Source of the DNA: an uncultured Paracoccaceae bacterium
Lineage (GTDB): Bacteria > Pseudomonadota > Alphaproteobacteria > Rhodobacterales > Rhodobacteraceae
Length of the DNA stretch: 64,000 nucleotides
Reading direction: 5' to 3'
NCBI GenBank assembly: GCA_947498645.1
Contig: CANMKS010000001.1
Location: forward strand, 1,588,032 to 1,652,031
Shown here: in pieces, positions 34,481-36,048 of the stretch
How the letters are laid out: each line of letters begins with the position of its first letter
Position numbering within the stretch: position 1 is the stretch's first letter
Program-made: the position numbers and the translations under genes
The notes under the pieces: generated by a model
Databases searched by the model: none
What the model saw: only the letters and a program-made list of their open reading frames with translations
What the model was told of the DNA's origin: nothing

Positions 34481-34946
34481 ATTTGTTATTCACAGTCTTC
34501 AGGCAGGGGGTGGTGCGCTTGCCATCACCCCCATGCCGGGGCGCACGCGGCATTACTATACCGACTGGCAGCGATTGCTTGATTGGCGTCCGGCGCTGGT
34601 GATCACGCTGACGACGCAGGCCGAATTAGAGCGCAAGGGTGCTGGCACATTGGGCGCGGATCTAATCAATGAAGGGATCGGCTGGCTTCATTTTCCGGTG
34701 CCCGATTTTGGCACGCCTTTCGGGCAGGACTGGCCTGCCGCGCGCGACCGGGCGCTGGCCACGCTGGCCAAAGGCGACCGCGTTCTGGTGCATTGCTATG
34801 GCGGGTGCGGGCGGTCGGGGATGATGGTGCTGCGTCTGATGATTGCGGCAGGTGAAGACGCGGATGAGGCGCTTGCGCGCCTGCGCGATATCCGGCCTTG
34901 CGCTGTCGAAACCGAGGCGCAGATGGCATGGGCGCGGCAGGGATGA
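34473..34946 (+). CDS. Protein tyrosine / dual-specificity phosphatase-like protein
   Basis: VLVHCYGGCGRSGMM matches HCxxGxGRS; probable TTG start overlapping the ankyrin gene stop. Confidence 0.8.
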   Translation: MPEFVIHSLQAGGGALAITPMPGRTRHYYTDWQRLLDWRPALVITLTTQAELERKGAGTLGADLINEGIGWLHFPVPDFGTPFGQDWPAARDRALATLAKGDRVLVHCYGGCGRSGMMVLRLMIAAGEDADEALARLRDIRPCAVETEAQMAWARQG

Positions 34947-34962: not shown

Positions 34963-35004
34963 GTACAGAACCTGTACATACACTGTACAGATCCTGTACG
35001 TACA
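34963..35004. repeat. Array of four alternating GTACAG/CTGTAC half-sites
   Basis: GTACAG-AAC-CTGTAC (34963-34977) and GTACAG-ATC-CTGTAC (34985-34999), repeat period 22 bp. Confidence 0.75.
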
Positions 35005-35013
35005 ACCCGTGGG

Positions 35014-36048
35014 TTAGCGCCCCTTCTTTTTGGCCGTCGCCGACCGATACATCTTGCCCAGTTTGCGATAGCGATCACGCGCCTGCGCGATGGTTTCGGT
35101 GGCATATTCGTTTTCACGCTTGAGCTTTTTGAACCGCTTGAGCCGATCAGGGTCGACCGCACCGCTGGCAATGCCGGCCTGTACGGCGCAGCCGGGTTCG
35201 GTTTCATGTTCGCAGTCGCGGAATTTGCACGTTGTCGCAAGTTCCGAAATCTCGGGGAAGGTTGCGTCGATACCGTATGCCACCTCTGCCACGCCAAGCC
35301 CGCGCATACCGGGTGTATCGATCAGCCAGCCGCCGCTGGCCATTGGGTGCAGGGATCGCCCGGTTGTCGTGTGACGCCCGCGCGCGTCATCCTCGCGGAT
35401 GTCCTGCGTGGCAGCATTGCCGCCTGTCAGCGCATTGGCCACGGTCGTTTTGCCCACACCGGATGATCCGGCAAGTGCCACGGTTTGTCCCTTGCCACAC
35501 CAGAGTGCCAGCAATGTCGGCACATCATCGTTTTTGGCATCAAAGGCGATGACATCAAGATCACGCCCCAGAACCTTGGCCTGATCAACATAGCTGTCTG
35601 GATCATCGGTCTGATCGGCTTTGGTCAGCACGATCACAGGTGTGATCATCGCGTCATGGGCCAGTGCCAGATAGCGCTCCAGTCGCGCAGGGTTAAAGTC
35701 GTTGTTGCAGGACGATGTGATGAAAAGCGTGTCAAGATTGGCCGCGATCAGTTGTTTTTCACCGGTATGATATTCTGTGCCACGGGTCAGTTCCGTCTTG
35801 CGGTCCAGCACACGCACCAGCCGGTGTTGTTCGGGTGCGGCCAACACCCAGTCGCCAACGGCAACAGCGGCGGTTGTGATGCCGGGACTGAGTGTCAGTT
35901 CCAGCGTTCCGATTTCGGAAAAGCCCACAACCCGGTCGCGGTGGACCGTGGCAATGCGGGCAGGTGTCAGGGCTTCCAACTCTTCAATTTCAAGTTGGGA
36001 CATATAGAAGGGCGACCAGCCAAGGGCGTCGCGTGTAAGATCTGTCAA
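35014..36048 (-). CDS. rsgA: Ribosome small-subunit-dependent GTPase A
   Basis: Circularly permuted GTPase: VLTKADQTDD (G4), GSSGVGKTTVANAL (G1), DTPGMRGLG (G3), C-terminal Cys/His zinc motif. TTG start. Confidence 0.95.
   Translation of the reverse strand: MTDLTRDALGWSPFYMSQLEIEELEALTPARIATVHRDRVVGFSEIGTLELTLSPGITTAAVAVGDWVLAAPEQHRLVRVLDRKTELTRGTEYHTGEKQLIAANLDTLFITSSCNNDFNPARLERYLALAHDAMITPVIVLTKADQTDDPDSYVDQAKVLGRDLDVIAFDAKNDDVPTLLALWCGKGQTVALAGSSGVGKTTVANALTGGNAATQDIREDDARGRHTTTGRSLHPMASGGWLIDTPGMRGLGVAEVAYGIDATFPEISELATTCKFRDCEHETEPGCAVQAGIASGAVDPDRLKRFKKLKRENEYATETIAQARDRYRKLGKMYRSATAKKKGR

Follow-up and report, generated by a model that had tools for sequence, protein, structure and literature searches.

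Some twenty matching arrays between the genes of a marine Rhodobacteraceae bacterium as putative protein-docking sites

Short arrays of 11-bp units are scattered over this Yoonia genome (G000) in about twenty matching copies, and the family to which they belong is dispersed, retains its chromosomal positions and has cores specific to particular lineages. Both the presence of a gene encoding an orphan BrnA-like ribbon-helix-helix (RHH) protein and the occurrence of an array upstream of that gene follow the array family. Judged from sequence, the arrays are putative protein-docking sites between the genes of this marine bacterium, and we consider it fairly probable that they are chromosomal binding sites of the orphan RHH protein, which would be autoregulated and architectural in function and would have a drifting specificity. 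No earlier description of the arrays was found in the open-access literature.

One array lies in the window, i.e. the whole stretch of 64,000 nucleotides that was analysed (C1:1588032-1652031), where positions 34963-35004 read GTACAGAACCTGTACATACACTGTACAGATCCTGTACGTACA. It is held in a 67-bp gap between the stop codon of a phosphatase gene (34944-34946) and that of rsgA (35014, minus strand). The array units and their neighbours are as follows:

34518-34946, plus strand: dual-specificity-like phosphatase (PTP-SAK/DSPc), left convergent neighbour, context only
34963-34973, plus strand: array unit 1, GTACAGAACCT, in the 11-bp register common to other arrays
34974-34984, plus strand: array unit 2, GTACATACACT, in the same common register
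34985-34995, plus strand: array unit 3, GTACAGATCCT, in the same common register
34996-35004, plus strand: array unit 4 with the right end, GTACGTACA, with doubled GTAC
35014-36048, minus strand: rsgA GTPase (RsgA_GTPase, E 1.3e-43), right convergent neighbour, context only

An earlier note on this DNA had described a GTACAG/CTGTAC repeat between convergent genes, and both the repeat and its setting, with the phosphatase and rsgA stops flanking the array, were borne out. GTACAGN3CTGTAC occurs exactly at 34963 and 34985, and with up to two mismatches it has four matches in the window, more than predicted by local shuffles (mean 0.51; four reached in none of 100). The 22-bp period of inverted repeats claimed in that note was correct as to the repeats, but it is only part of a tandem pattern with an 11-bp period: a third copy with one mismatch is placed midway, at 34974, and GTAC recurs at 34963, 34974, 34985 and 34996, giving four units of GTAC-N7. 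GTAC reads the same on both strands, which accounts for most of the apparent inverted symmetry. Similarly, what had been seen as a palindromic block following the repeats, TGTACGTACA, is the fourth unit with an overlapping GTAC, and the doubled-GTAC terminal form of GTACGTACA also recurs in other arrays. As to function, the proposal of a cooperative protein-binding site would fit well with 11-bp-phased units, about 20 copies, a core that is kept while the spacers drift, and a candidate binder gene provided with an array. The comparison with iterons holds as an analogy only, since the arrays are dispersed and not gathered at one origin, and the suggested start of an antisense or small transcript gained no support, as the window array has no promoter-like match and the array no match in Rfam.

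Throughout G000, the pattern GTACN7GTACN7GTAC gives 23 exact matches, overlapping ones included, which make up 18 arrays, and the reversed control pattern gives none. Seventeen of these arrays are on the main chromosome and the other is on a 72-kb contig; with two near-exact arrays the number comes to about 20. Within the genus, at least two GTAC-array matches were found in 17 of 49 genomes, G000 included, and none in 32, so that GTAC arrays are also present in 16 other Yoonia species. When a stricter pattern was used to scan a named collection, all 57 matches belonged to genomes named Yoonia or to records of Rhodobacteraceae that are close or uncultured; the sources included Yoonia maricola, Loktanella sp. 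PT4BL and Roseobacter sp. CCS2, together with one genome labelled only Alphaproteobacteria and one Sulfitobacter record. A longer repeat element, sought in plasmids, gave no match.

At the rsgA/phosphatase junction itself, most close relatives have a different palindrome (e.g. GTAAGGTGGATCATGATCCACCTTAC) and no array; in one MAG record (L078) the phosphatase homolog is followed by an array. Although the family is conserved, its member in the window is thus lineage-restricted. Absence in close relatives, named beforehand in the earlier note as counting against its reading, is largely true of the window locus and untrue of the array family. The palindrome found there in most close Yoonia relatives, downstream of rsgA, is for instance GTAAGGTGGATCATGATCCACCTTAC or GTAAGATGGGTTTAAACCCATCTTAC (records L127-L149, e.g. 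L132); these junction palindromes look like a separate, REP-like family.

Conservation of position was apparent when the flanks of 93 array sites were compared by BLAST. Many sites are orthologous across species, with flanking DNA about 70-90% identical, among them one at the beginning of a gene that neighbours a cytochrome-peroxidase gene and one within a beta-mannosidase gene. In aligned orthologous arrays the GTAC register is kept, and the 7-bp spacers and the number of units vary. Where a genome is devoid of GTAC arrays, CGTCGG repeated at an 11-bp period takes their place at these sites: G012 has it at four orthologous positions (site sets A, B, C and G), and G015, G024 and G027 have it at set B or C. 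The CGTCGG core is frequent in these genomes, with 113-177 matches, overlapping ones included and both strands summed, and a control of 0. At the ppaC site, GTGCAT and GTATG arrays were found in two other genera, and most sampled genera have no array. A CGTN8 scan of 150 genomes of the family disclosed further cores, and in several genomes the 'control' pattern was itself abundant, owing to arrays with TGC at an 11-bp spacing. The GTCGG and GTATG arrays are direct repeats and not short palindromes, and GTCGG arrays are not self-complementary.

Among 60 arrays sampled in three genomes and placed by means of a simple custom gene caller, 34 were between codirectional genes, 15 between convergent and 8 between divergent ones, and 3 were within coding sequence. 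Arrays are almost always intergenic, bias towards promoters or in orientation is absent, and the annotated neighbours have unrelated, mixed housekeeping functions. Some arrays are close to tRNA or tmRNA genes; for example, one in G012 (L233:2984-3440) precedes the tmRNA gene by about 70 bp, and one in G000 (L065:2830-3276) lies between tRNA genes. In the GTCGG lineages, TTAA boxes are found at -30 (17/39) and +29 (17/39) from the array, and boxes and array together form a larger rigid element in long intergenic regions; by inspection, at least one G000 array (L060) has the same TTAA spacing. In the G012 loci L231-L250, this longer element consists of GAATCAT..GTTAAYGC to the left of the array and GTTAATG..GCGCGCGGT..GTTAAGG to the right, both at fixed spacing, and the left box includes GANTC, a CcrM-type site.

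By GC skew, the origin of G000 is at about 1.0-1.2 Mb and its terminus at about 2.65 Mb. The origin half holds 13 of 19 chromosomal arrays, a weak bias (p 0.08), and the largest array-free gap (633 kb) spans the terminus; G022 was sampled as a second genome, at some of its array positions. Confinement to a Ter region was rejected: arrays occur all over the chromosome and tend, if at all, to be sparser around the inferred terminus. By inspection, replichore-directed polarity was also rejected, array orientations being mixed on both arms, and so was a lux-box reading, for which the spacing is unfit.

The candidate gene for a binder of the arrays is located outside the window (G000:C1:39501-39935, minus strand), adjoins an array at C1:40000 and has a FabH-like gene and a large carB-like gene as neighbours. 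Its product, the orphan BrnA-like protein, contains a BrnA_antitoxin domain (PF14384; E 1e-16, 61.5 bits versus a cut-off of 26.1). Profile searches gave no sequence relative in the PDB, and a viral relative, modelled at low confidence (pTM 0.40) and showing two helices, gave no PDB fold match; hence, the RHH assignment rests on the Pfam domain and the literature (PMC11980606). The orphans have a longer N-terminal part, conserved among them, and a BrnT-like signature within 1.5 kb was detected, by a regular-expression test only, at 1 of 58 loci. The viral relatives are short BrnA-like proteins encoded on phage-like contigs (L470-L473), without upstream arrays.

Six genomes, belonging to five genera, have an RHH gene beside an array, and in most of them the array lies directly upstream. 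A de novo search of the 200 nt upstream found 11-bp arrays at 40 of 57 RHH genes versus 0.5% of shuffles, and a stricter cut retained 33 of 57 versus 0 of 1140. The distance from array end to start codon is 67-112 nt (median 83), and the core of the upstream array is usually that of the dispersed arrays in the same genome. At the 17 of 57 genes where a clear upstream array is missing, some products are possibly other BrnA-like proteins. Profile searches distinguished two RHH types in Yoonia, whose co-occurrence with the arrays was tested with related genomes counted as independent. The first is present in 15 of 37 genomes, and at least two GTAC arrays occur in 13 of these 15 versus 0 of the 22 lacking it; the second is present in exactly the eight genomes with at least nine GTCGG matches (8/8 vs 0/29). 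Across genera, an RHH gene was found in 19 of 19 array-rich ones versus 43 of 131 others (Fisher p 7.7e-9, related genomes again counted as independent and the array-rich cut chosen after the counts had been seen). Genome G008 carries both RHH types, at C2:168980 and C6:68278.

Changes in core might be related to a single residue, X, of the predicted strand K-x-X-V/I-T, located where RHH proteins contact the major groove. With core classes partly assigned by eye, several core labels taken from other arrays of the genome instead of the upstream one, and p-values that ignore relatedness, X was Lys with GG-containing cores (12/13 vs 0/31, Fisher p 6e-10), Arg mainly with CA cores (17/23 vs 2/21, Fisher p 1.7e-5) and Pro or Ser with GTACAT/G cores; in the G000 protein it is S59. 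The exceptions, all with Arg, are G176 (GTATGG), G151 (GTATGAC) and G212 (GTACAT). On a tree built with the strand masked, Lys at X changes six times. Among informative independent pairs on supported branches, 4 of 4 agree for Arg versus Pro/Ser and 1 of 1 for Lys, one further pair being uninformative, and such pairs are too few for significance. It is therefore suggestive that this one predicted DNA-facing residue tracks the array core after correction for relatedness.

From these comparisons we infer binding, dimer stoichiometry, autoregulation and the architectural function of the RHH protein and its arrays. RHH dimers would dock cooperatively on one helix face, one per 11-bp unit and usually on four units. 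Docking at the array in front of the RHH gene would probably provide autoregulation, and the remaining, mostly intergenic arrays may serve nucleoid or chromosome organisation in a MatP-like or ParR-like manner and not as a classical regulon. The architectural role is suggested by the placement of arrays without regard to promoters or orientation. Residues of the RHH beta-strand would be the route by which specificity shifts, and sites already present would be re-tuned in place, which could lead to arrays with different cores at the same position in different lineages. A broader proposal, put forward tentatively as a possibility somewhat short of even, is a Rhodobacteraceae-wide chromosome-organising system in which one autoregulated RHH protein serves 20-100 fixed positions bearing 11-bp arrays, with all sites rewritten in place in each lineage as the beta-strand preference changes. 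If true, this would be an unnoticed layer of chromosome marking in a major marine bacterial group, probably overlooked because the motif differs between lineages. It would also offer a natural series of protein-operator pairs with many changed sites per genome, a setting for testing how the specificity of a DNA-binding protein can change and dozens of sites change with it. The proposed strand code predicts operator preference from sequence.

The main rival explanation, which we regard as rather unlikely, is a global transcription regulator, either the RHH protein or some other factor, for which the arrays serve as operators, each of them controlling a neighbouring gene. Many arrays do precede one gene or more, and the array of the RHH gene itself stands at a fixed distance from it; however, the 15 convergent and 3 intragenic arrays among the 60 sampled, the lack of relation between array orientation and genes, and the unrelated functions of neighbours argue against such control. 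OmpR-type and MerR-type regulators use 11-bp direct repeats, but a binder of the OmpR/PhoB or MerR kind was rejected in a comparison covering orthologs of G000 (GTAC) and G012 (GTCGG), which keep their recognition helices unchanged; lineage-specific OmpR/MerR paralogs without an ortholog are a possible binder.

That the arrays could be a short interspersed mobile element, REP- or MITE-like and copied by a transposase, seems improbable. Intergenic dispersal, lineage-specific sequence families and the frequent inclusion of GTCGG arrays in the longer TTAA-bounded element are in line with it. Yet the same positions carry different cores across species and genera, which independent insertion would rarely give, the units of the GTCGG and GTATG lineages are direct repeats and not REP palindromes, and a transposase is absent among annotated neighbours. 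Still harder to credit is a bidirectional terminator or structured RNA between the convergent genes. The window copy folds well as RNA (-25.3 kcal/mol, z -2.7) and most close relatives have another palindrome at the junction, but the window array lacks a terminator-like T run and any Rfam match, other arrays occur in different contexts, coding sequence included, and those with GTCGG cannot pair with themselves.

For binding by the RHH protein, the reading we prefer, partial parallels exist. CarH/CarA, PhoB/OmpR and SARP regulators recognise 11-bp direct-repeat operators at promoters of few genes; the arrays share the repeats and would differ in not being such promoter operators. In type II plasmid partition (ParR-parC), ParR of plasmid R1 requires two 11-bp repeats, and repeat sequence varies between families together with binding specificity (PMC9426499). 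Here, too, a predicted RHH protein is accompanied by gene-linked tandem direct repeats of about 11 bp but, unlike in ParR-parC, some 20-100 small arrays are dispersed over the chromosome and a ParM partner was not seen beside the RHH gene of G000. MatP, an RHH protein that binds DNA, has over 20 sites dispersed on the chromosome (PMC12756933). The predicted RHH protein and dispersed sites recall MatP-matS of the E. coli Ter macrodomain, whereas MatP sites are confined to Ter and the arrays occur throughout the chromosome. With BrnA of BrnT-BrnA the protein shares the Pfam domain, and the array upstream of its own gene recalls BrnA autoregulation (PMC11980606); it differs in the absence of a BrnT signature at 57 of 58 loci, in the many dispersed sites and in the longer conserved N-terminal part. 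REP/BIME interspersed elements are likewise many short intergenic repeats (PMC2817692); the arrays differ in being non-palindromic in several lineages and conserved in position across genera.

Two peculiarities of repeat structure were also noticed. Contigs 90 and 127 of G213 contain long exact 11-bp tandem repeats (CGTCACGCCCC), which raise the count for that genome and resemble a minisatellite unrelated to the four-unit arrays. In three G012 arrays (L241, L247 and L250), the middle two units have changed places, CAAAA preceding ACTTG contrary to the usual order, as though the units were modular.
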